From: Chrysophaeum taylorii
Lineage: Eukaryota; Sar; Pelagophyceae; Pelagomonadales; Pelagomonadaceae
Assembly (NCBI GenBank): GCA_029834535.1
Contig: JAQMWT010000140.1
Span: 24,136-88,135 of the forward strand
Length of the DNA: 64,000 nt
Reading direction: 5' to 3'
This document shows positions 15,530 to 64,000 of the stretch, piece after piece. Both the position numbers and the translations under genes were made by a program. Position 1 is the first letter of the stretch, and each line of letters begins with the position of its first letter. The notes below the pieces were generated by a model. That model worked only from the letters and a program-made list of their open reading frames with translations, searched no databases and was not told where the DNA came from.

Positions 15530-17165
15530 AGGTCGTACGCATGCTGCCGCCGGACCTATGTGCGACGAGGGGTGACGTCCTGCTGGGTTCGGGCAGCCTC
15601 GGTGGGGCTCTCCGAGGCGGCGACATGGGTGAGGGCGGTGAGGGCACGGCGAGCCCGGCGGCCTAATGCGTTGGCGATCCCCCACTCACGGTAGATGCGG
15701 CGAGTTTTTTTTGGGCCGCCTTTGCCTCTGTGAAGTTGGCGCAGCCGCTTGCCACCCAGGCTCGCGCAGCGACGCGCTCTGCGCGTGTTCGGGCGACGGC
15801 GTGGCACGCCGCGCTGGCCTCACCGAAGGCACCAAAGACGAGGCCGGCGACGGTGTCGTAGCTACGTAACCGCTGTTCGACAGGGCCCAAGAAGCCAGAC
15901 GGTGGTGCTGTACCCGGCTGGGGGATGATGGCGTCGATGCCGCGGGCGTGAGCGAGGTATTCGGAGTGGACTTGCGCTGCGCGCCGATCGACAGGCGACG
16001 GGTGGGAGGGATGTGGAGGGCGTGGGCGGTGTATAACGAACCCCAAGCGAGGGTTTTGAGGTCGTAGAGTTGGTCCTTGTTGTCGAGCGTGGTGAGGATG
16101 TCTGGGACGACTTGGCGTCGGGCGAGATTGCCTCGGTACCGGCCGTAGAGGCGCGTGCGAATGGTAGGGGCGACGACGTCAGCAACTAACTAACTAACTT
16201 CAGACCTCTCCCGAGCATGGGAGCCAGGCCGGACCGACAGGAGCCAGTCCGGGATCACGGGCCTGTAGACGAGGAGCGCCGAAAGGTGGGTAGGAGAGTG
16301 ATCATCAAGCTTGTCGCCATGCGACGAGGAGACCGCGATGTTACTGACAACCAACTCGTCGATAACCTTCCGTCTGCGCCCCCCGGCCATACCCCGTCCC
16401 ACTGCGAACGTTCCGGCTGCCAACCGGCCCGCCCGGGAGGCGAATAGGTGCCAACCTACGCCGGGAGGGCGGATGCCCTCGCAAGGCTCAGAATTCATGA
16501 GGCACCGTCCTCCATCGCAACCACGCGGTCGGCGATCAGGGTAAGCACGTCAGCAAAGATGCCGAAAACCTCGGACAGGGCCGGGATGCCGGCCTCTTTG
16601 ACGATGCAGAGGACGCACTCGAGCAGGCCGTCATGCCAGGTGGCCCGCGCTTCTCCGCGGTTTTTAAGGTTGACCTGCGTGAGAAGCACCTTGACATTGA
16701 GCGTCGAGAACGACGTCAGTGCCCAGAATGCGAGTGCCCACGAGGCCCGAACAAGCTGGAGAGGGGTAGCCAAAATACTGGGCACACATCTCAGCCCAGC
16801 AGCGGTTGGGGATTTGAAGGGAGGAGCTGGGCCACGAGCTGATGAACGTGGTCGAGAAGCGATCCCATGAGGACGCCGCTACTCGAAGAGCATCGGTGAT
16901 GGGAAGGGTGGCCGCAAGGCGCTGGAGTGCAGTGGCCCGAGCTGTCTGTCTCGCGCTGGGAGGTTAGAGCACGCTGCTGGACACTGTGGTATGAGCACGG
17001 GTGTCGAGATGGTGGGGTCGACATGGAGACGAATTCGTGGGAGAGAGGACCGTCGACGAGATGAACGTTGGCGGGGTCGCCGGAACCAGCGCCGCCGTGG
17101 GAAGCCAGCGTGGTACGGAGATCAGCCCGAAGTCCGTCCCACCGTAATTTGTGTGTGGTCAATTT
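15530..17165 (-). pseudogene. Degenerate mobile-element ORF (possible LINE pol C-terminus)
   Basis: Minus-strand coding sequence with several frameshifts. Recognisable segments are DRRAAQVHSEYLAHARGIDA, then GPVEQRLRSYDTVAGLVFGA and FGEASAACHAVART (15770-16000), and YREWGIANALGRRARRALTA (15650-15710). From memory this arrangement (GPVE, FGAFGE, then a W-G-I-A helix) resembles the C-terminal part of predicted reverse-transcriptase-type mobile proteins in algae and dinoflagellates; I cannot confirm it. No RT catalytic motif is present. The ORF is interrupted by a short retroposon at 16186-16546. Confidence 0.4.
16186..16546 (-). mobile_element. Short (TTAG)n-tailed retroposon, full length
   Basis: 361 bp in minus orientation. 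The 5' end (at 16546) begins GCTTACCCTGATCGCC and the 3' end finishes with GTCTGAAG plus TTAG units (16186-16203). It is bounded by a perfect 10-bp duplication ACGTCAGCAA (16176-16185 and 16547-16556). The 5' end coincides with that of the copies at 50068-50431 and 51566-51925, so this is a complete unit. Confidence 0.88.
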
Positions 17166-49684: not shown

Positions 49685-50067
49685 CACCGTCAAAGGTTTT
49701 TATTTGCTTCACGGTTTCCTTTCGACCATTAGAGCAAACTGCAATCACTTTATTTTTCTACTAATGAACCGTATCCAAACATATTTCTCTCGCTATATTC
49801 AACTATATTACATTGAAAAACAGTTACCGGTCACATTACCATAACGATTATCCGGGAAACCTCTATGTGGCTGACGGTTTGTGAAAGTCGAAGTTAATAT
49901 TATTATTATTAGTGACATGACCTACTTCACTTCGTCTACAAAGATATTATGATCGTAGCCGTTGGTTGATATGGGGCCCTTGAAAAAAAAAACATATACA
50001 TTGGCAAGCATAACGAAATCAGTGTAATGTACACAAACGTTCGGTATGTCAGATACCTACAACCTTA
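49685..50067. other. Intergenic region, no gene seen
   Basis: AT-rich sequence upstream of the beta-helix gene with a TTA repeat at 49899-49912 and an A-run at 49983-49992. It ends at the target duplication of a short retroposon. Confidence 0.45.
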
Positions 50068-50431
50068 ACTAACTAACTTCAGACCTCTACCGAGCATGGG
50101 AGCCAGGCCGGACCGACAGGAGCCAGTCCGGAATCACGGGCCTGTAGACGAGGAGCGCCGAAAGGTCGGTCGGCGGAGAGTGACCATCAAGCTTGTCGCC
50201 ATGCGACGAGGAGACCGCGATGTGACTGACAACCAACTCGTCGATAACCTTCCGTCTTCGCCCCCCGGCCATACCCCGTCCCACTGCGAACGTTCCGGCT
50301 GCCAACCGGCCCACCCGGGAGGCGAATAGGTGCCAACCTACGCCGGGAGGGCGGATGCCCTCGCAAGGCTCAGGATTCATGAGGCACCGTCCTCCATCGC
50401 AACCGCAGTCGGCGATCAGGGTAAGCGAGGG
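50068..50431 (-). mobile_element. Short (TTAG)n-tailed retroposon, full length
   Basis: 364 bp, minus orientation, with a perfect 10-bp duplication TACAACCTTA (50058-50067 and 50432-50441). The 5' end at 50431 reads CCCTCGCTTACCCTGATCG. Lies in the flank of copia copy A, just outside its LTR. Confidence 0.88.
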
Positions 50432-50638
50432 TACAACCTTATTGGACCATAAACCCACTTTCAGTTTGCACAAAAAAAAAAAAAAAAATCGCGCCGACCG
50501 AAACCCGCGTGTCGCCCGGCCACACACGCCGAAACGTCCCCTGGCGCAGCCCGTGAAGGTAAAAGTGGTCTCGTGCGGCCCGGCAGAGCGACGTGAGCCC
50601 TCTTTTAATCCATTGAGGCTCAAAATCTGTCTTCGGTC

Positions 50639-51039
50639 TGGAGAGATTTGACCCTCTCCGGGTACATGGTAGAGACTGCGTGCAGTCTTAGGCGTGTACA
50701 GACCATTCCGCTTGTCACATACCTCTACACAAGGTAGGGATTTAGGCCCTAACTCCTTAAGGACACTATGTCCCATAGCAGCGTTTACACTGACAACGGG
50801 GAACGAAGCCTCTGTTAATTAAACAGAAAACCCCGTACCTGACGGTACGCACCTGGAGGCCTACTCCATGTTGGTAGAAAGCTTCAGACGATTCTCATTG
50901 TCATGAAATATATAATTGCGGAAGGGTAAGGAAGGAAAGAGGGAAAGCCGTATTACGGAGAGAAAACCCTCTTGTGGAGATAGGTGTGAAATGAGTGAAA
51001 TGTTCCATTGTCGTGCACTTAATAGTGTAGCTCTCTGGA
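50639..51039 (-). repeat. 3' LTR of copia copy A
   Basis: The reverse complement of the LTR at 58085-58483, with scattered substitutions and a small indel. It begins (on the minus strand) TCCAGAGAGCTACACTATTA and ends in CTCTCCA. A purine tract GAGGGGG lies directly before it (51040-51046). Confidence 0.88.
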
Positions 51040-51565: not shown

Positions 51566-51925
51566 CCTTACCCTGATTGCCGACTGCGGTTGCGATGGAG
51601 GACGGTGCCTCAAGAATTCTGAGCCTTGCGAGGGCATCCGCCCTCCCGGCGTAGGTTGGCACCTATTCGCCTCCCGGGCGGGCCGGTTGACAGCCGGAAC
51701 GTTCGCAGTGGGACGGGGTATGGCCGGGGGGCGAAGACGGAAGGTTATCGACGAGTTGGTTGTCAGTCACATCGCGGTCTCCTCGTCGCATGGCGACAAG
51801 CTTGATGGTCACTCTCCGCCGACCGACCTTTCGGCGCTCCTCGTCTACAGCCCCGTGATTCCGGACTGGCTCCTGTCGGTCCGGCCTGGCTCCCATGCTC
51901 GGGAGAGGTCTGAAGTTAGTTCGTT
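51566..51925 (+). mobile_element. Short (TTAG)n-tailed retroposon, full length, inside copy A
   Basis: 360 bp in + orientation with a perfect 12-bp duplication AGACAGCAAAGG (51554-51565 and 51926-51937). The 5' end is CCTTACCCTGATTGCCGACT. The tail is short and mutated (TTAGTTCG). Confidence 0.9.
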
Positions 51926-52892
51926 AGACAGCAAAGGTTGGGATTACAGTGTCCTGATGCATCTGAAGACTTGAAAGTATGTTATCTAAAAGGGCCACAT
52001 GTTTAATATTCTCGGTCACTTGAGTATTTAGTGTGTCGTAAGCTTCTTGCATCTGGGTTAGTGTTTTTAGCGCAACAGATAGCTGTTGATCTCGTGCCAT
52101 CAATTGCTGTTCACTGTTAGTGAGACGCGAGGATGAAGACTGAATCTCTTCTTTTAATTGGCGTAAAGATTCAGCCATATTGTCGTTAGCTTTATCTGGC
52201 GTGGGTTCAGCGGATGGATTGTCGATTGGTGCAGGTGTTACATATTCAGATGAGATGTTATCTGAAAAAGCATCAACTATAGCAGAAGGATAGCCAACCT
52301 GGACTAGCACATTTTTAAAGGCTGATTGCTGATCGAGTGAAAGTTGACGAAAATAAGTAAACATTGGCGGTAACCACTCGGAGGATTTAGCGTTAAGTTG
52401 GTGAGAGACATCATTAACGAAGCTTTCAATGAGCACAGTAAGTAGCTCATCAGGATTGGTGACTACACAGGTTTTATCTTCAATGGACTTTTACAAGACC
52501 AAGCTGCTACAAGGAATTCAAGATTTACACTCGAAATATAAGGCAGCTGTAGCAAGAGATGGGCATTAGCGTCAGGGTTGATAATGATTTTAGAAGCATC
52601 GACGTTAAAGCTTGCCATACACTGCATGAGCGCCTCTTTGAGCAGCTTGTTAATAGCAATGGACTTTCCAAGGCGGAGGATGATAGCTCTCATGTGTGCA
52701 GCAGGATCATTATAACATGAAAGGCGAAAAGATTGTTGATTGTTGCAAATTTAAGCTGTCCCGTGGTGGGATAGGTTGCACATGACGCAAATCAACAGAA
52801 AGAAGGGACGTGGTACGTCGAAGCAATGCGATGCGTGTTGTTCAGACGCGAGATGATCTTCGATGATTTTCCTTATCTTGTCCGTTTTAAGC

Positions 52893-53155
52893 GGGCGGGC
52901 CGGTTGGCAGCCGGAACGTTCGCAGTGGGACGGGGTATGGCCGGGGGGCGAAGACGGAAGGTTATCGGCGAGTTGGTTGTCAGTCACATCGCGGTCTCCT
53001 CGTCGGATTGCGACAAGCTTGATGGTCACTCTCCGCCGACCGACCTTTCGGCGCTCCTCGTCTACAGGCCCGTGATTCTGGACTGGCTCCTGTCGGTCCG
53101 GCCTGGCTCCCATGCTCGGGTGAGGTCTGAAGTTAGTTAGTTAGTTAGTTAGTTA
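52893..53155 (+). mobile_element. 5'-truncated (TTAG)n-tailed retroposon inside copy A
   Basis: 263 bp, starting within the family at GGGCGGGCCGGTTGGCAGCC. Bounded by GTCCGTTTTAAGC (52880-52892 and 53156-53168), and with a tail of five TTAG units. Confidence 0.88.
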
Positions 53156-53922: not shown

Positions 53923-54928
53923 TCAACCATCTTGTTGAGCTATGGGTTGTTGTAAGCCAAGTAACGTGCGGAATCTGCTGAAGAGCGGAGCTCCGAAGGG
54001 TTTAGTGAATCCGTCAGCAATGTTTTGAGTACCGGAAGAATGATGGAAACATGATGTAGACGTATTCGTTTTAACTGTACGTAGTCGCGAATACGAAACC
54101 AGCGTGTGCTGAGCATTGCGAGGGCATCCGCCCTCCCGGCGTAGGTTGGCACCTATTCGCCTCCCGGGCGGGCCGGTTGGCAGCCGGAACGTTCGCAGTG
54201 GGACGGGATATGGCCGGGGGGCGCAGACGGAAGGTTATCGACGAGTTGGTTGTCAGTCACATCGCGGTCTCCTCGTCGCATGGCGACAAGCTTGATGGTC
54301 ACTCTCCGCCGACCGACCTTTCGGCGCTCCTCGTCTACAGGCCCGTGATTCCGGACTGGCTCCTGTCGGTCCGGCCTGGCTCCCATGCTCGGGAGAGGTC
54401 TGAAGTTAGTTAGTTAGTTAGTGTGCTGATAGCTCTAGCCTTAGTCGCACTGTCGGGATTATTTGATAGATGGATAGCAGAAGCAGAGTCTCCAAGTATA
54501 GGACTGTTACGTATGAACGACATGTCCGATGGGAGAGGGTTGTCGTGAGCATCATAATCTAATAACAAGTCTTTCCCTGGAGGTTGGCGAAGATAGTAGT
54601 GAGGATTTATAGCGAATGCCATTTCCGTTAACAATTTGCGTAACCAGACCACACCATCGGCACACATATTAAGGGCGATAAGTTCACTCTCATGCGTAGA
54701 AGTAGCCGTGATAGGCTGTAATTTAGACTTCCAAGTGATGAGTGAACCGAACAAAAAGATGGCGTAACCGGTTGTAGTCTTGCGGTCTTGTTCATAAGAG
54801 GGTGCGTTATCGGCATCAACGATCGCGACCAATGGATCAAAGTTACCTGAATTAACTTGTTCTTTAGTGTAATCCAACATGGTTGCCGTGTCAGTGCGAT
54901 TGACGATAAGAAGTCTAAGATGGTCCAT
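53923..54928 (-). pseudogene. Copia RNase H, split by a retroposon (copy A)
   Basis: The upstream part (54928-54430) has VAIVDADNAPSYEQDRKTTT (first Asp), ITATSTHESELIALNMCADG (Glu) and SPILGDSASAIHLSNNPDSA (Asp). A 308-bp retroposon then interrupts it. The reading resumes at 54112 with RWFRIRDYVQLKRIRLHHVS, and, after one frameshift, NIADGFTKPFGAPLFSRFRT, the usual copia RNase H terminus. TGA is at 53925-53923. Confidence 0.85.
54113..54420 (+). mobile_element. 5'-truncated (TTAG)n-tailed retroposon inside RNase H of copy A
   Basis: 308 bp starting at GCATTGCGAGGGCATCCGCC, with a perfect 9-bp duplication GTGTGCTGA (54104-54112 and 54421-54429). Removing the insert and one target copy rejoins the RNase H frame. 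Confidence 0.9.
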
Positions 54929-56501
54929 TAGAGCGGAAGAGCCAAGAGTAGTACCAGAGTCGAAGATTGCGATTTTCGGGCTTGCGCAAGTAGCGGAGCG
55001 TTCCTGTTAGTACTCGAACGTGTAGAAATGCTGGATTATGCATTCCTCGGGAACAACGACTAAGGCTTTTGGATAGATCAGGGCGACAGGCCAATTGTAC
55101 AAAAGTGAGCTTGCCGAGTAAGGTGGAGAAGGTATGAAGAATAAACTTGTCCATGTCAGAGGATGGCTCTCCAGTTTTATAAGTGGTTGATGGTGACATC
55201 GGTGTAGAAGTGGGACGTAGCTGCATTAAAAATGGGTACTCTTCGAACAATGCATCAAGTTTAGCTTGACAGTCCAGTGAGATAGAGCCGTCAGTAGTAC
55301 GCGTTATGCGCATGCCTAAGAGAGTATGGACTTCTTCAAAGGTGTCGACTGAGTATTCCTTTTTCAGGGCTTGCTGGAATTCACGACGTAGAGTTTCCGA
55401 AGTGCAAGTGATGACGACGTCATCTACTGAGAGCGTGCAAATTGAAAATGTAGCGTCAGCCTGGACTTTAGCGTAAATGCACGTATCTGTTCGGAAGCGT
55501 GTATAGCCAAAAGAATTAAAGAAGCTATTTATAGTTTGATTCCAAAGGGCAGGACTTTGTCGTAATCCATAAAGAGATTTAAGTAGTTTTGAGAGACGAC
55601 GGCCGTGATATTTGGTATCTTCAGGATCGAGAAGGTAAATGCCTTGTGGCAGTTTGACGTAGACATGAGAGTCGATGGGAGCTTGAGCAAAAGCGTTAGG
55701 TACGTCGACGTGGTAGACAGGAAGTCGCAGATGGGCTGCTAGCGCCAGAACACAACGGATGCCAGAAAGCTGTGCCATAGGGCTGAATGTGTTGAAGAAG
55801 TCGGTGCCCAGAGAGGCTAAAAATCCTCGTAGGACCAGGCGTGCTTTATGTTTAAGATATTGACCGGCAGCATTGGTTTTTCTACGTAGGACGAGGCGGG
55901 TGTCAATAGGCTTTGAGTTGACCATTGGCAACGCGAGTTTAAAGCAGCTAAACTTAACAATGTCAAAAATCTCCTTGGAGATAGCGGAAATATAAGCTTT
56001 ACGATCAGCGTCTGAGAGACCTTTGAGGCAGGTCAACTCATATTCATCAATTTTGATATCTTTGGCTTGAATCTTGTGTTCGTCCGGACAAACAGTGCTG
56101 GGGGAGTGAGCCGTCGTAAGATGGGTGATTGCGTAAGAGGCGACATTATCGTTAGTGTGAGCGTGATCGGGATCTTCGACAAGTTGAACAACTAGTAGAG
56201 GAGCATCACCAAGGTGGGCCTCAATGTAATGCGATTGCACGGTGATATAGTCTTCGATGGCGGAGAGGTGAGGCTCGGAGGCTCCATAAGAAGCGTCGTT
56301 ATGATCCAAACTGGAGTGGGGTGTGAGCAAAGCATAAGCATATTGAGCGGGAGAGACTTGAAAAGCGTGAGCATGTTCGGAAATGAGATGAACGAGAGCT
56401 TGAGGAAGGTGAAAGTCTGCAAGGCTGACGTCGTCGCAGAAATGGACGTGAGTGGCATCAGGCGATGGATGGCTATGGCTCCTATGACACATAACTGACA
56501 T
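54915..56501 (-). pseudogene. Copia reverse transcriptase (copy A)
   Basis: 528 codons without a stop. The RVT_2 domain starts at about residue 170: KHKARLVLRGFLASLGTDFF, then LRLPVYHVDVPNAFAQAPID (first catalytic Asp), LLKSLYGLRQSPALWNQTIN, ICTLSVDDVVITCTSETLRR (S-V-D-D instead of the usual Y-V-D-D) and HTLLGMRITRTTDGSISLDC. The domain itself looks intact, but the element as a whole is broken, so it is given as a pseudogene. Its first 160 residues are the variable linker between integrase and RT. It overlaps the RNase H frame by 14 nt, in a different frame. Confidence 0.85.
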
Positions 56502-57427
56502 TGTACTTCATGATTAAAGACATGTAAGTAAGGGGGAAATGCGGACATATTAATACCATGTTCCACACGAAAGGGAGTTGTAACATGCTGAGATAAATAG
56601 GGTTTAAACGAATTACAATAAATTTGTTTTAGTTGTACATGAGCATAAGTAGAACAACAATTGCGGACAAACTCAAGGGCGTTACAAAATTCGCTAGAAT
56701 TAGTGCTACGACAAAAGTACACTAACAAAAATTTAGAGATGGGACACTTAAAAACAATGATATGTCGAAAGGATCCCCATTCCGAGAGAACAGATACGTA
56801 ACCACCGTCACATGCCCAGGCTTCACCAGGTTGAAAAATTTTTTCGAATGACGGTTGCTTGGTAAGATGGTGTGGATGAGGGAAGCGTTTTTTATGAATC
56901 GTACAATCCACACAGAACTTACGGTAGGGTACATCAGAAGGATGATGTCCCGGACTGGCAATAACCTGAACAGCTTATATAGCTTGAGAATCACTAGAAT
57001 GGTGGATGTTGTGAAAATTGGTAGCACGCTGTTGCGCATCTCGAAATGCGAGGGTGCTGGCATGAACTTTTCTATCAAAGGGTGCATGCTTCTCATGGAG
57101 CTGTCTTGGCGTTATGAGAGGAATTTGTCTTTCTTTAGTAGAGGATGATATATCTGCGGACGAAGTGTTAGAGAGGAAGACATGAGCCACTGAATCCAGA
57201 TGAAAAGGTAGAAGTTCGTGGTTAGAAGCAAGATTGTCACAACATAAAAATTTTGTATTAGAGATATATAACATTGTAATGGAACTCTGGTGTAATATTA
57301 ACGATGTGTCGTTTGGGCATATATTTGTGAAAAAGGTTGACCTATAGTTTTTGGTTAGAGAAGCGTGATCAGGTTCAAAGGATGGTGATAACGTTAATTT
57401 ACGCAAGTCATAGACAATATGACACAA
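56192..57427 (-). pseudogene. Copia integrase region (copy A)
   Basis: Two main frames. The first part (57427-56975) leads into the zinc-binding region at about 56950-56880, SPGHHPSDVPYRKF then CVDCTIHKKRFPHP, that is an H-H ... C-x-x-C-x(n)-K integrase N-terminus. The core follows: AWACDGGYVSVLSEWGSFRH, then IIVFKCPISKFLLVYFCRST (first Asp, beta strands and the usual K). The later D and E are hard to place because of drift. Stops and frameshifts disable it. Confidence 0.7.
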
Positions 57428-57430
57428 GTT

Positions 57431-58084
57431 TTAATAAATGACATGATAGGTTCCGGCCGGAATAGCATTAGCGATTATGTCGCAGCATAGGTCCGGGGAC
57501 AAAGACAACAGGAAGTTGATTTGGTACGCTGTGAAATTATTGGCGCGTGCCAATTCACGAGTTGAGTAATGTCGAATGCGATCGAGTCGTGGATCGTACA
57601 AGATCATGTTAGCAAATCCACGGATTGTAGGAGTGGGGGTATATATAGAATGAACTTTGGCGCCCATCTTCCTATCACTGGATGTGATGAAGCCAAGGTA
57701 TCTGCTTTGAGACAGATGCATGTCACTTAAAGCAAAAATTTTATCGATAAACTCGAGACGATTTTCCTGAGGGTAGAAGACGAAAGAATCGTGAAGCACA
57801 GGTGAAGTATATAGGAAACCAGTGTTTGTACTAGACGACGCGAGTCGTGATTTTCATTATTATTATGGTATGCTTGACAAAGCCAAAGGAAACCGGTAAC
57901 AGGATCGAGAGAGGCAGTCTTATCGATTCCGGTGTCATGTGTTAGGAAGGTATAGGTTTCACCAAATGCATTTATATGTGCCTGGTATTTAGAAGAGGAG
58001 TTAAAAACTGTTATGTCTCCACCTGTGTGTCTTCCACCGGTGATGTAAATGATGGAGGAAGTAGAGGATTTATTTAAGAATAAC
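57431..58084 (-). pseudogene. C-terminal part of retrotransposon cytosine-C5 methyltransferase (copy A)
   Basis: Two frames. The first (58060-57850) has YITGGRHTGGDITVF and LDPVTGFLWLCQAYHNNN, matching copy B at 62800-62980. The second (57799-57431) has PTPTIRGFANMILYDPRLDR, IRHYSTRELARANNF (motif IX, with R-x-x-S/T-x-R-E) and CDIIANAIPAGTYHVIY (motif X, the usual G-N-A-x-P as A-N-A-I-P). The element's left edge at 58084 is the junction with copy B's LTR, so motifs I-VIII of this copy lie elsewhere. Confidence 0.75.
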
Positions 58085-58483
58085 TCCAGAGAGCTACACT
58101 ATTATGTGTGCGACACTGGAACATTTCACACCTATCTCTACACGAGGGTTTTCTCTCCGTAATACGGCTTTCCCGCTTTCTTTCTTCCCTTACCCCTTCC
58201 GCCCCTTTTCTTTCACGACTATGAAGAACCCAGTCTGAAGCTCTTTTCCAACATGGAGTAGGCCTCCAGGTGCGTACCGTCGGGTACGGGGTTTTCTGTT
58301 TAATTAACAGAGACTTCGTTCCCCGTTGTCAGTGTAAACGCTTCTATGGGACCTAATGACCTTAATGAGTTAGGGCCTAAGTCCCTACCTTGTGTAGTAG
58401 CATGTGACAAGCGGAATGGTCTGTACACGCCTAAGACTGCACGCAGTCTCTACCATGTACCCGGAGAGGGTCAAATCCCTCCA
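58085..58483 (+). repeat. 5' LTR of copia copy B
   Basis: 399 bp, inverted relative to 50639-51039. It begins TCCAGAGAGCTACACTATTA and ends CCCTCCA, directly before the primer-binding site. Confidence 0.88.
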
Positions 58484-58502
58484 GGTTATGGGCCCAGATG
58501 CG
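58484..58502 (+). other. Primer-binding site (internal initiator tRNA-Met fragment)
   Basis: GGTTATGGGCCCAGATGCG. The first 14 bases are complementary to the anticodon stem-loop of initiator methionine tRNA (CTGGGCCCATAACC), the half-tRNA priming mode known from Drosophila copia. Confidence 0.8.
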
Positions 58503-58969
58503 TAGGTGTGTCAGCCCAACTGTGTTGTACGTCTAAATCGAATGATCAATTTACGGCTGATCACGAGTACAATACGACAATGTGTTTGGCGGTGGTCTAC
58601 TGTACATATTTGTTGTGTGACGGTATGTGCCAACCAGTTAAATTGGTTTGTGACCGAGTTGGGTCGGTCACTGGTCATATGCACTCGCATAACCAATAAA
58701 ATTAAAGTTTTTCCTATACAAGCCGCGGAAACTTGTATGGGTTTTTCCTTCCACTCCCCAACAAAAGACTGACTGCTCGAGAACTAATCCATTCTTCAGT
58801 CTCAAGTCACCCTGTTTTAAATAACATGTTGATTTGTTTGGTCTTGTCAATAAACCTACGTTTTAAAAATCGCGTACTGTACATAGAACCCGCACTTGAG
58901 AAACCCTTCATTCTTATGTGTTGAATCTGTCTATCAATCCTCTAACCTATCCCTTAATAGGTCACAATC
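58503..58969 (+). other. Leader of copy B
   Basis: 467 bp between the primer-binding site and the first gag ATG. AT-rich and without a supported frame; expected to carry packaging signals. Confidence 0.5.
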
Positions 58970-60310
58970 ATGTCAAAACAAAAAACAATATCTACCACTT
59001 ATATCTACAAACAAGAACAAATCCTCGTTGACAATATTAACGCATGATTGCGTTTCCAAGATAATTCAACTAAGGTGAGCTTGCAAATTGAAACGCTTCG
59101 CAGGCATATGACAAGTCCATATGTGGACGCATTATTCTGCTTTGATTCATATGAAGCTTACACCCGGAATGCTCCGGAATATAATCAAATCCTTGAACAA
59201 GAAGTTGATATCATCTTCTCTCAATGGAAAGCTGAACAAGTTAACGATTTAAACTTACCTGATGAAGATGCCCTGCCCGAACATTTTAAAACTTGGCACG
59301 TCAACTCTTATCACCAACTAACGGTTGATGCCCGTAATAGCCTTAAACGACTTTACTACCAAGAGTCGTACAACCTTGTCCGTCCTGAATTAAATGAGGA
59401 TGTTAGAAATGTCCTTACTTTATTAGATACCCGATTTCCTAAATCAATTGTGTATGATTCATCTTTAACTAACATATCCTTTACAGGTCTCTCTAATGCC
59501 GATTGGATCAAACACTGCGAAACTTATGCTGGTTTTTTGTACATATTCTTTAACCTCGAGTCCCAGGAAAAGCCCGCTCTTGCTATGTGGCCTCAACTAA
59601 AGAAAAATTATGCAATCCCTGCACATCCCAATAAATTACGTGCTGTAATGCTTTTAGCCTATCATTACTATGAGATAGTGTCTAGTAAAGATGTAACTGA
59701 GCTTAAATCTCAGTTTAATCGAATGTCTCTAAATGTTAATTGGTATGCCCATGTATTTGTCGAACAACTCCTTTCCTTTCAATCTCAGGCAAAGCAATTA
59801 AATAATGATGAAGCATCAATCCAATTTAATAACTCCATAATCACTCTTAAAGCTCACGAGGAGATCTACCGTCTATATGCCAATCCATCGGATCACGAGC
59901 GCTATGCTCAATCTTTATTGGAATGGTGTAAACTCTACGAGACACGCTCTAGTAACAACTCAAGTCACGATCCCGAATTGTTAAAGCTAGTTGATCCCAA
60001 CGACGTTCGTCCACTATTGGAATTCTTGTTAAAGATATATAATGAGACAAAGTTTTCTTCTAACCGACGATTGGATAAACCCGCTTCTTGGATCCCTTAC
60101 ATCCCTGGTACTACCGCTACCAAGCCACCTAAAGTATTATTGATGGACACTATTCATCAATCCCACGATTCTCTAAACAACGCTTACTCGTTGTTAGCTA
60201 CTGTAGCTGGACAGTCTGGCTTCAATGCTCGTAAGCTTCGTAATGCTAAAGATAAAGCATCGACAATCTCACCCCGTGACACGTCGTACTATCGTACACC
60301 TTCAAATTAA
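58970..60310 (+). pseudogene. gag-like ORF of copy B, with one nonsense codon
   Basis: ATG at 58970 (MSKQKTISTTYIYKQEQILV) runs in frame into the long ORF but meets TGA at 59045-59047. After it 420 codons are open (RFQDNSTKVSLQIETLRRHM onward). The product is mostly helical and polar, with NADWIKHCETYAGFLYIFFN and LLSFQSQAKQLNNDEASIQF, and a basic C-terminus (FNARKLRNAKDKAS). No zinc knuckle is visible. The position after the primer-binding site supports gag; the sequence itself does not match a family I know. Confidence 0.65.
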
Positions 60311-60379
60311 AACGTCAAAGGTACCAGCTTCGATCGTCCTGTCTACTCATCTTCCTCCAACCGCAATGCACGCTCTAAT

Positions 60380-61633
60380 ATGTCTCTTATGGACCGGGCT
60401 ACTTATCAAGTTGATCGCCTTCGCCACCTGTTTGGTAAATTGCAGGAAGCGAATCCCAATCCTTCCACCGACTCTAAAATGGTACAGGAGGAAATGAAAA
60501 GCTTTTTGAGTACCCTCTGGACAACCGCTTCTCAAGCTTCGACACAGTCCTTAGATCCTGATGAAGCCACCCAAGTTCATCTCTATTTATCTCGAGTTGA
60601 TATTATGTCCAATACCATATCGAACCTCTTGGAAGCCGATAAGGAATCTCTTGTTTCAGAAGAAAAGTATCAAACTGAAACATCTGCTCCTGAAGCGTCC
60701 CCCAGTGATGCGGAGCAGAGGGGGACTGCTGATACAGAGAAAATGTTCCACACTTTTCTGTCAATTAAAGATGATGAAATCGATAACATCCCTCAGCCGC
60801 TACTGCAGCACATAAATGCTAAAGCTCAGAATGCTATTGTTCGTCGTCAAGCTCGGGGAACTTCTTTGCACTCTGAGCTCCCCAGTAATTTAACCAACGA
60901 AGATGGTACAGATCCCCCTGTGTTGCTACCAAAACTAAATACTGGTTTTACACTTGTCGTTGTGCCTTCCGAACAAACGCAAAGTTTCATGACACAGTAC
61001 GTGTTTGGTCAAAGCTCAACACATGCCTGTTATGCAACAATGCTTAAATTGTACAACGAGTACAATTTGCCGCTAATGACTACGCCAGGATATGCTGACA
61101 CATGTGCTTCTCAACATGTAATTAACTTTAAACGTTATGCTGATCCTATCCACATCGTAAAGTTACCCGAGTCTTTATCACCTGCTATCCAGACTGCTAC
61201 GGATACGCAGAGAATCACACATGCTATGATTATAAGGACCGTCATTCCCGCTTTGCCAAAGCATCCAAATGTGGGATATGTAAAGCTAGACGTTGCGCTT
61301 TTCCTACCCAAGCAAAACGACCACAACGATCCCGATCTGCACATCATCAGTATGACTCAATGGGGAGAAGATAAACTTGGTATACACCTTTATGGAGTCG
61401 AATTTAAAGGACAATCATCTATCCAGAGTAAAATTGATGATAATGTCAAGATTGCTTTGTTTAGACTCAGTAACCTGTTGCCAACTCTACCAATTTACTC
61501 GCTACAACAAGCAAAAGCGCGTAAAATGGAACTTCGCTCACTACAGTTCAGACTATGTGCTTTTAATGAACAACGCGAAATGCTCAAACTTTATTCCGCC
61601 CATGGAACGAGTAGTTTATGTCCCATGGCTTAA
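60380..61633 (+). pseudogene. Protease-containing frame of copy B
   Basis: 417 codons from ATG 60380. The first half is acidic and helical. The retroviral-type aspartic protease motif is at about residue 238, GYADTCASQHVINFKRY, where D-T-G-A-S reads D-T-C-A-S; the hydrophobic flank and the H-V after it fit copia protease. The second half (LDVALFLPKQNDHNDPDLHI, then LPIYSLQQAKARKMELRSLQ) links to the methyltransferase in another frame, with a shift near 61595-61620 (VVYVPWLKTILESKHSQLPY). Confidence 0.65.
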
Positions 61634-61639
61634 AACCAT

Positions 61640-63430
61640 TTTGGAGTCAAAGCATTCGCAGCTGCCTTATATACGCAAGCATTTCCCACCTCCTGTATGA
61701 CGCAAGGTTACAGCACGTTTGCTCCACACAGTAACTTCATCTCCTAGCCCAGTAACTTTACTTTGTTCTGGGATGTCCACTCCTGCATTCCTGGCTTGCG
61801 CTTCTAATGACTTGCAAATCAACATCGACGTTAAAGTTCTTGTTGAGAGCGACGACAATATCACGCACATGCTACGAAGACGTTTTGGTAACTCCATCGA
61901 AGTTTTCCCATCCCTACCTAAGTTTCTAACATATCTCCATCGAGCATCGGACGTTGAACGTGCACGGTTTTACACTGACATAGTGGAATTGACATCACCA
62001 TGCACAAATCGCAACATAATCAATGGGAGATCCATTTCCGCCTTCGAACGCGATATGGATGATTCCTTGTTTCCAAGTGCTCTAAGTGTACTTGAGCTTT
62101 TAAAGCCGCTTGTTCTTTTCATGGAAATGACACCACCACACTCCGCATCGTACGAAGATCATATACGAGTTGCTAATCTCATCTTCTCAACGATGCACTA
62201 CACGGTGGACATATGTGACCGATTTCCATGCTATCTATGTGGAGATTATCAAGCTAGAGAAAGATGGATCCTCGTTGCACGCAAATATAACACCGGCCCT
62301 CTCGATCTGCTTTCATGGCCTAATAAACGAGCCACCTTCTTTCTGGATATCGCAGACCATGCTAACTCCATCAGTCGTAAGTTAATAGTCGACGAACCTT
62401 GGACACAAGTCTTTCTTGACTTACCATTTGTGTCCACACCCAAAACCTATAACATATTTAGTCGTACCGGATCCGTGCGCTTAAATGTGACTGAGCTCGA
62501 AACCTTAACTATGCTGTTCCTTCGTCTGCACTCTAATAAGACAGTCGAACATCCCGGTCAAGATGAAATGGAAGGCATTTCTAATTTTCGCCTAGGATTC
62601 TTGACTAATTCAAGAAAACCACTAGTTTGCATGAGATCCCTTATTGAACTCAAAGCTTTTGTGCTCCTCTATAATATCATGGGACGATTTTTCCCTAAAT
62701 CCATCACATTACCTGTGTCCTTTCGTATTACAACTATCGAACCTAACCAACCACCTTATAGGTTACTCCTAAATAAATCCTCTACTTCACCTATCATTTA
62801 CATCACTGGTGGAAGACACACAGGCGGAGACATAACAGTTTTCTAGCTCTTCCTCTAAATACCAGCTACACATAAATGCTTTTGGCGAAACCTAGACCCC
62901 TTTTAACACACGATGCCGGAATCGATAAAACTGCTTCTCTCGAACCAGTTACCGGTTTTCTTTGGCTTTGCCAAGCACACCATCATAATGAAAATCAAGA
63001 CACGCGTCGTCTAGTACAACCACTGGTTTCATATATACCTCTCCTGTATTTCACGATTCTTTTTCTTGTCTTACCCTCAGAAAAATCGTCTGGAATTGAA
63101 TTATCGACAAAATATTTGGTTGAAGTGACATGCATTGTGTCTCCCAAAGAAACTACATATAAATTTGGGCTTTATTAAATAATAAGCGACTGGAAGATGG
63201 GTGCCAAAGTCATCTATATATACTCCACTCCCCCACCATTTCGTGGATTAGCTAATAGCTCGTGTACGAGCCCCGACTCGATCGCATCGACACTACTCAA
63301 CTCGCGAATGGCACGCGCAATAATGACCCACAGACGCCCAAAATCCAATTTTTTCTTTTGTTCTTTGCCCTGACTATGTTGTGATATCGTCGAAAATGCG
63401 AGCCAGATGGAACCTATCATACAATTATAA
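61640..63430 (+). pseudogene. Cytosine-C5 DNA methyltransferase domain of copy B
   Basis: The ORF 61719-62846 has the C5-methyltransferase motifs in order: I, VTLLCSGMSTPAF (61750-61790), the AdoMet-binding loop; II, LVESDDNITHMLRRRFG; IV, TDIVELTSPCTNR with the catalytic P-C at 61998-62003; VI, LVLFMEMTPPHSA with Glu at 62124; VIII, GDYQARERWILVARK with Q-x-R-x-R at 62247-62261. Downstream sequence matches copy A, where motifs IX and X are clear. In copy B the part after 62846 is frameshifted (one extra base near 62838), and TGA at 61698-61700 lies before the domain. Family role: methylation of cytosine in DNA, here presumably of element or host DNA. Which DNMT subfamily it belongs to cannot be decided by eye. 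Confidence 0.8.
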
Positions 63431-63466
63431 ACACTTATGTTTCAGCTGGTGACGACTTGCGTACAT

Positions 63467-64000
63467 TAACGCTATCACCCATTCGTTTTGTACGGGAGTC
63501 ACGTCCTCTAACCAAAAATTAAGGGTCAAACCTTTTCACAAAATAGATTTCCTCACCCTCTTCAAAACAGGATACATATGTAGAACATTAACCAGAGTTG
63601 CCAACTTGGACTATGCTGACAGCTCCAATAAAAAGCTCGTATGTGAGATACTAATTCTAATCCGCCGGTTCAATTTTTCACTAATCACTTCTAACCACGA
63701 ACATACACTTTTATACTGATTCAGGAGCTCATGCTTTCTATAACATTCCGACACGAAGAGAAGAATCGCTCCAGTCTACAATAATGAAAAACAAATACCA
63801 CTCCGTAACGCCAAGACATGCTCCATGAGAAGCAGAGCGCCATCGATAAGAAAGTCCCACCCCCCCCCCATCCCATGCCGGGGCCCACACCCCCCCTTGC
63901 ATTCGAGAGCGAAACAGCTAGCTAATAATTTCACAAATCACCATTCACAGGGATTCTCAAGCCATAAAAAAAAGCTGTTCAGGTATTATGCCAGTCCTCT
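63467..64000 (+). pseudogene. Start of integrase region of copy B (cut by window end)
   Basis: Collinear with copy A 57380-56940: CTAACCAAAAATTAAGGGTC against CTAACCAAAAACTATAGGTC, TTCTAACCACGAAC, CGCCAAGAC then GCTCCATGAGAAGC, and AAGCTGTTCAGGT at the very end. More degenerate than copy A, with C-runs at 63859-63869. Confidence 0.7.

Follow-up and report, generated by a model that had tools for sequence, protein, structure and literature searches.

The right end of the window (the whole stretch of DNA analysed, 64,000 nucleotides, C140:24136-88135 of a genome of 70.8 Mb in 697 contigs) very probably holds an LTR retrotransposon of the Ty1/Copia type, with a divergent C5-cytosine methyltransferase (MTase) at the start of its Pol, a degree of confidence that refers to the identity of the element and not to its role. 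Retrotransposons are normally victims of cytosine methylation; an enzyme on board reverses this usual role.

Two broken copies of the element and the UGA ahead of the MTase frame

Two broken copies of one element lie head to head at the right end of the window, near the end of the contig; copy A reads along the minus strand, copy B along the plus strand. Their features are as follows.

50638..51039, minus strand: copy of the putative LTR, candidate 3' LTR of copy A, with other repeats in between (repeat comparison)
54410..55006, minus strand: RNase H-like region of copy A (read from the sequence)
54918..56507, minus strand: Copia reverse transcriptase (RT) of copy A (RVT_2, PF07727, E 4.5e-42)
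56195..56971, minus strand: integrase (INT) region of copy A, with C-x-x-C and the first of the catalytic Asp residues recognised (rve only at E 0.11)
57431..57850, minus strand: putative C-terminal part of the MTase of copy A, motifs IX (PTIRG) and X (NAIPAG) (collinear with the genomic copy L035; same stretch in other copies)
57730..58084, minus strand: putative middle part of the copy A MTase, truncated at 58084 (reading and comparison with L035)
58085..58484, plus strand: putative 5' LTR of copy B, some 400 bp long (matched in inverted orientation, at 88% identity, by 50638-51039)
58970..60307, plus strand: gag region of copy B, interrupted by two in-frame stops in the count up to 60310 (reading; start and order match the natural frame L032:631-2454)
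60311..61630, plus strand: gag/protease (PR) region of copy B (protease-like D-T-C-A-S by eye)
61698..61700, plus strand: in-frame UGA separating gag-PR from MTase-INT-RT (conserved in 32 of 34 distinct copies)
61701..62846, plus strand: putative C5-cytosine-methyltransferase domain of copy B, motifs I to VIII (open frame, 381 aa)
62876..63373, plus strand: decayed MTase C-terminus of copy B, frameshifted, motif IX region recognisable (frames; alignment to L035 up to 63549)

The comparison with L035, with which window positions 58083-63549 are collinear (94.7%), revealed that the first base of the putative copy B LTR (58085) abuts the cut point of copy A (58084), and therefore copy B probably landed inside the MTase part of copy A in the opposite orientation. 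Copy B is damaged by the two stops in gag, by a frameshift ahead of the MTase and by decay of the C-terminus past 62846, and the stretch 61640-63430 comprises the end of the protease frame, the UGA, the MTase frame and this decayed C-terminus. No meaningful Pfam match was obtained for the gag/protease region of copy B. In the integrase of copy A the second catalytic Asp reads Asn, and its natural relatives matched rve at E 0.0061 to 0.011, below the rve cut-off. A further repeat, at most about 360 bp long and with copies that are 95-98% identical, was also observed at 50066-50425, 51566-51927, 52892-53149, 54109-54422 and 16185-16545, the same repeat being inserted in locus L036, and a C-rich low-complexity stretch (63840-63900) lies near the contig end, beyond the match of copy B to other copies.

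The UGA that precedes the MTase frame is found in the context CCTCC[TCA]GTA-TGA-C[GA]CAAG in the 32 copies that conserve it, L036 included, and in L010 the upstream frame is shifted at the UGA site. L058, a copy of a sister subfamily, contains a UGA in another context (TGA-CTA), 21 codons before motif I, and an additional stop a further 38 codons upstream. In the MTase frame the first Met falls within motif I, which argues against separate AUG initiation of the MTase. Both observations, the conserved UGA and the position of the first Met, point to readthrough as the likeliest route to Pol, and the MTase is probably made in this way as its first domain. Tca2 of Candida albicans is also a Ty1/copia element. 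It resembles the element described here in its reported UGA stop between gag and pol, with no mention of an MTase in the opening of the abstract (PMC2194720); in the present element the UGA follows the protease region.

Motifs, profile matches and selection of the MTase domain

C5-MTases are recognised by motif I, the Pro-Cys of motif IV, the Glu of motif VI, the QxRxR of motif VIII and motifs IX and X. In the frame 61701-62846, motif I was read at 61758-61790 (LLCSGMSTPAF), the Pro-Cys of motif IV at 61998-62003, the Glu of motif VI at 62124-62126 and motif VIII as Q-A-R-E-R starting at 62250, which is the order that the first-pass annotation had proposed for copy B; its assignment of motifs IX and X to copy A was likewise borne out by PTIRG and NAIPAG in the minus-strand frame 57850-57431. 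Copies of the family to which the window element belongs (family 1) contain motifs I, IV, VI, VIII, IX and X in order, and the window splits them between copies B and A. The usual residues at motifs IV and VI are PCQ and ENV, from which family 1 departs with PCT and EMT.

Pfam scans of single genome copies recovered no PF00145 match in six of seven cases (the window frame, L007, L019, L031, L037 and L058), and L036 gave a sub-threshold match (E 0.18, 11.6 bits). The sole match reported for the window frame among 38,880 PHROG families was phrog_116 'DNA methyltransferase' (E 0.11); the same profile matched L031 (E 0.001) and L019 (E 0.0011), spanning the core and the C-terminal part, and L058 (E 0.05). 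The only database relative, found among 5.8 billion proteins, was P0001, a 392-aa protein from an MMETSP transcript that shows 41% identity to the window frame (E 8e-76) and keeps the catalytic Cys, the Glu and QxRxR. P0001 matched PF00145 at E 4.4e-4 with 20.2 bits, just under the curated cut-off of 22 bits, which was reached by no family-1 protein tested, P0001 included. It also matched phrog_116 (E 3e-8) and phrog_363 (E 7.4e-5), both of which are matched as well by the host DNMT2-like and DNMT5-like proteins. The PF00145 match expected by the first-pass annotation thus failed for the window copy and held for relatives only, namely a second Copia family, which passes the cut-off (see below), and P0001, which stays under it.

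Further searches for the MTase domain were negative in an NCBIfam scan of L031, in searches of the whole protein database with L058 and with L059 (a copy of the second Copia family) and in viral-contig scans, and PDB sequence searches returned no convincing relative, P0001 finding the cytosine MTase 3g7u only at E 0.49, ranked below designed ankyrin proteins. AlphaFold, given a two-row alignment of the window frame and P0001, produced no usable model (pLDDT 33 and 36), presumably owing to the lack of homologues. Nevertheless, because of the phrog_116 and P0001 profile matches and the kept motifs, the resemblance to MTases is judged to exceed chance, and 61701-62846 is, on sequence grounds, a divergent C5-cytosine MTase domain.

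The conservation of the domain was analysed in an alignment of 37 rows that represent 34 distinct copies, since L033-L035 repeat L007, L015 and L022. The catalytic Cys is kept in 36 of the 37 rows, the Glu and QxRxR in every row and the NA[IL]P of motif X in 35; a loss of motifs from other copies, which the first-pass annotation had regarded as evidence against its proposal, was therefore not observed, the motifs being kept in nearly all rows. Between L031 and L019 (dS about 1) the dN/dS ratios were 0.03 for the core, 0.09 for the middle insert, 0.04 for the IX-X part, 0.16 for the linker and 0.03 for the integrase. Over six pairs they ranged from 0.02 to 0.16 for the core and from 0.01 to 0.19 for the integrase, the core being looser than the integrase in the pair L036-L019 (0.16 versus 0.05) and tighter in the pair L028-L019 (0.07 versus 0.19). 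Pooled ratios among 33 family-1 copies were 0.08 for the core and 0.30 for the integrase, the core value being biased downward by the choice of copies, since the 30 ranked ones were selected for their identity with the window frame, a procedure that depresses dN; L031, L036 and L037 entered the set because of their long open frames. In the dN/dS comparison with L058 the synonymous sites were saturated. These data indicate that the MTase core and the integrase are under purifying selection.

Association of MTases with Copia and Gypsy elements

The window MTase frame has at least 109 matches in the genome and the MTase of the sister subfamily at least 137, fragments included in both cases, and the two match lists should not overlap because the subfamilies are only 44% identical over 1506 columns (L031 versus L058). 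L058 contains an uninterrupted frame of 1691 aa with MTase, rve (E 0.0076), SH3 (E 5.6e-4) and RVT_2 (E 7.7e-42), and L031 a frame of 1464 aa that reaches the start of the RT. A Copia-type RT with an integrase upstream in one frame is thus present, rve being below its cut-off, and the order of natural copies, gag-PR / MTase-INT-RT, supports the initial proposal of a Copia element with its own C5-MTase. Among the matches listed, an integrase match followed on the same strand, 1-5 kb further downstream, at 70 of 135 MTase places of the sister subfamily; at 51 of these 70 it lay within 150 bp of the median offset of 2160, and at none of the 135 was an integrase found upstream or on the flipped strand. 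Viewed in reverse, and again among the matches listed, an MTase was located upstream of 70 integrase places and 57 RVT_2 places, out of 150 of each. Taken together, the genome-wide matches, the uninterrupted MTase-integrase-RT frames and the purifying selection argue that the MTase domain belongs to the element.

A search of the genome with PF00145 yielded 124 matches; in 55 of them the aligned segment of the profile is the one that a single second Copia family would be expected to hit. FTLPCQHLS was present in all 18 fetched loci of this family (L040-L057) and ENVPP in 15 of them, and a natural frame of 1952 aa (L059:3097-8952) matched PF00145 (E 1.1e-7, 32.1 bits), rve (E 0.0061) and RVT_2 (E 1.6e-38). 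The family clears the PF00145 cut-off with 32-35 bits and finds an MTase chain weakly in PDB (E 0.11). In L059 gag and pol lie in different frames that overlap by about 36 bases, an arrangement distinct from the UGA layout of family 1. Alignment of the family 1 and family 2 profiles with hhalign gave E 1.7e-4 (49%), and E 4e-5 (70%) when the roles were exchanged, over about 475 columns that are collinear from motif I to motif X. The best control against family 1 was a reversed low-complexity piece of DNMT5 (E 0.0022 over 44 columns), and the best of all controls was DNMT5 against its own reverse (E 8.7e-4 over 10 columns). BLASTP between the two families over the MTase C-terminus and the integrase gave E 1.6e-19 with 22.9% identity, a signal much of which may be carried by the integrase. 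The motif I to X alignment and the BLASTP result suggest that a single MTase capture likely preceded the split of the two Copia families.

The genome-wide data bear on two simpler explanations of the window. Its two broken copies at a contig end are what would be expected if one or a few copies had caught a host gene fragment or if the assembly were at fault, an explanation whose probability we consider negligible, since the matches of both subfamilies are spread over many contigs, P0001 provides a relative in another data set and the sister-subfamily MTase sits at a fixed distance to the integrase. It was rejected on the match counts and this spacing, and the absence of the segment from other copies, against which the first-pass annotation had warned, was not encountered. 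A chance resemblance, the domain being an unrelated enlarged spacer between protease and integrase, would account for the missing PF00145 match of the window copy, for the modest profile-profile probabilities (the 49% and 70% given above) and for the lack of a usable AlphaFold fold; it is very improbable, given that the family named in advance is the one that P0001 hits in two independent profile libraries and that motifs I to X are collinear with those of the PF00145-positive second Copia family, and it was rejected on the match counts, the spacing to the integrase and the phrog_116 match of P0001.

About 60 further rows of the 124 PF00145 matches cover only the start of the profile, and one of them, on C235, is a Ty3/Gypsy element. 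In L062 and L063 (C235:16300-23600), gag-like and protease-like parts, which were recognised by eye and have no Pfam match, and an MTase share a frame of 1745 aa, and RVT_1 (E 1.1e-13) follows the MTase in another, overlapping frame. The Gypsy MTase (L062:861-2030) clears the PF00145 cut-off (E 7.1e-6, 26.1 bits) in the motif I region only, and SPPC, R-x-R and a motif-X-like stretch were read by eye. This MTase family has at least 106 genome matches, its longest frames among the matches listed being of 3063 and 3067 aa on contig C5. Its nearest PDB chains are, weakly, those of DNMT2 (E 0.05). No significant alignment with either Copia profile was obtained by hhalign (E 0.1-0.4), and that with the host DNMT2-like protein (E 0.004-0.006) was no better than controls. 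A tblastn search of a phage collection with the Gypsy MTase gave 7 weak matches (best E 0.03), 3 of them under 'DNA methyltransferase' features. Because the element class differs, a separate capture is suggested for the Gypsy MTase.

The host genome itself encodes a DNMT2-like protein (L038) and a DNMT5-type protein (L061, C621:13500-21500) whose single frame joins a C5-MTase domain to a downstream SNF2 helicase domain. The Copia profiles showed no significant alignment with the DNMT2-like or the DNMT5-like protein alone (E 0.03 to 0.61), a comparison low in power, since these two host proteins also miss each other (E 0.31 and 0.39) although both are PF00145 members. The 84 genome matches to the chlorophyll-binding family PF00504 and the DNMT5-type gene mark the source genome as that of an alga. 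The lineages with reported DNMT5 include pelagophytes, diatoms, haptophytes and prasinophytes (PMC3145265, PMC9998398).

Proposed role and relation to known elements

In the model that we propose, gag and protease would form a first reading frame closed by the conserved UGA, and occasional readthrough would yield Gag-PR-MTase-INT-RT, in which the MTase core and motifs IX/X would flank a family-specific insert in place of the target-recognition domain. The MTase would be packaged in the particle and would put 5-methylcytosine on new cDNA or on the chromatin at the insertion site, and the methylated new copy would then be tolerated or protected. The idea of cDNA marking follows de Mendoza et al. 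2018 (PMC5890265). By homology, the MTase is probably active as an enzyme with the C5 of cytosine as its methyl target; a DNA rather than an RNA substrate is the favoured assumption, and a benefit through methylation of the element's own cDNA is put forward by analogy and tentatively. A CpG mutational footprint was not found in 31 copies, transitions amounting to 2.25% at CpG versus 2.00% at other C/G positions, and the CpG observed/expected ratio of the measured Copia stretches lay between 0.88 and 1.03, compared with 1.27 for window positions 1-50000. These figures, which cover the CpG context, give no strong indication of CpG methylation over the long term.

DNMT2 methylates tRNA, and a C5-MTase relative that acts on RNA (the element RNA or the tRNA primer) instead of DNA would be in keeping with the missing CpG footprint and with the weak proximity of the Gypsy MTase to DNMT2 chains. 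RNA methylation has also been raised by de Mendoza et al. for the LINE case (PMC5890265). Nothing positive speaks for such a substrate here, and family 1 has no significant match to the host DNMT2-like protein in the low-power test described above; we therefore regard this possibility as unlikely. The very divergent sequence and the altered residues beside the catalytic ones (PCT, EMT) could instead reflect a dead MTase fold that Pol retains for structure, DNA binding or dimerisation. This is decidedly unlikely in view of the catalytic residues, kept in all or all but one of the 37 rows and throughout in P0001, and of the second Copia family, in which PCQ is found at 18 of 18 loci and ENV at 15 of 18.

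An MTase-bearing Copia element extends a series of DNMT-bearing LINE, DIRS and Gypsy elements that are already in print (PMC5890265). The defining feature used by de Mendoza et al. 2018, a C5-MTase inside a retroelement ORF in many copies, was found here, and the window element, being Copia, falls outside the LINE, DIRS and Gypsy classes of the 2018 cases, to the last of which the third family described above belongs. KnitGypsy-Dnmt3 of Klebsormidium nitens is likewise an LTR retrotransposon with a C5-MTase in Pol under purifying selection, but it is a Ty3/Gypsy element with an enzyme of the Dnmt3 clade, whereas the present one is Ty1/Copia, has its MTase before the integrase and has family-1 copies below the Pfam cut-off (PMC5890265). 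SymbioDIRS-Dnmt3 and SymbioLINE-Dnmt of Symbiodinium share with it the hundreds of retroelement-borne MTases and differ in belonging to the DIRS and LINE classes (PMC5890265). De novo CG methylation was demonstrated in yeast for the Symbiodinium DIRS enzymes and was, inconclusively, not seen for the LINE and Gypsy enzymes, and the Symbiodinium Copia elements are described in the relevant part of that paper as having no DNMT domain (PMC5890265). The difference in element class makes an origin independent of the dinoflagellate and charophyte cases likely.

Among open-licence PMC papers, no described Copia element with an MTase was found, nor any MTase-bearing element in an alga outside dinoflagellates and charophytes. 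One sentence of a 2025 paper in Mol Biol Evol, which covers streptophytes and dinoflagellates only and refers to the 2018 paper, places DNMT3 members in LTR Copia and in DIRS elements; the passage describes no element (PMC12344493). Its 'LTR Copia' may be a slip, because the sections of the cited paper on these elements describe Gypsy and not Copia. The introduction of the 2018 paper also cites earlier links between DNMTs and reverse transcriptases (its refs 3 and 7), among which similar cases are possible (PMC5890265). The new features would accordingly be the Copia class of an MTase-bearing element, the presence of two deep Copia families and a Gypsy family with MTases in one small genome, and an MTase family that lies below the Pfam cut-off and occupies a UGA-gated place at the head of Pol.

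C5-MTases may, as a tentative generalisation, be standard in the LTR retrotransposons of this alga, captured once by a Copia ancestor that has since given rise to two deeply split families and separately by Gypsy, with self-marking of new cDNA. If so, mobile elements would supply hundreds of MTase genes compared with a handful of host ones, and a self-marking layer resembling restriction-modification could influence the epigenome of the host. Compact at 70.8 Mb and home to hundreds of copies with an MTase, from three families and two superfamilies, this genome offers a workable test bed. Surveys that rely on Pfam can overlook domains such as that of family 1.
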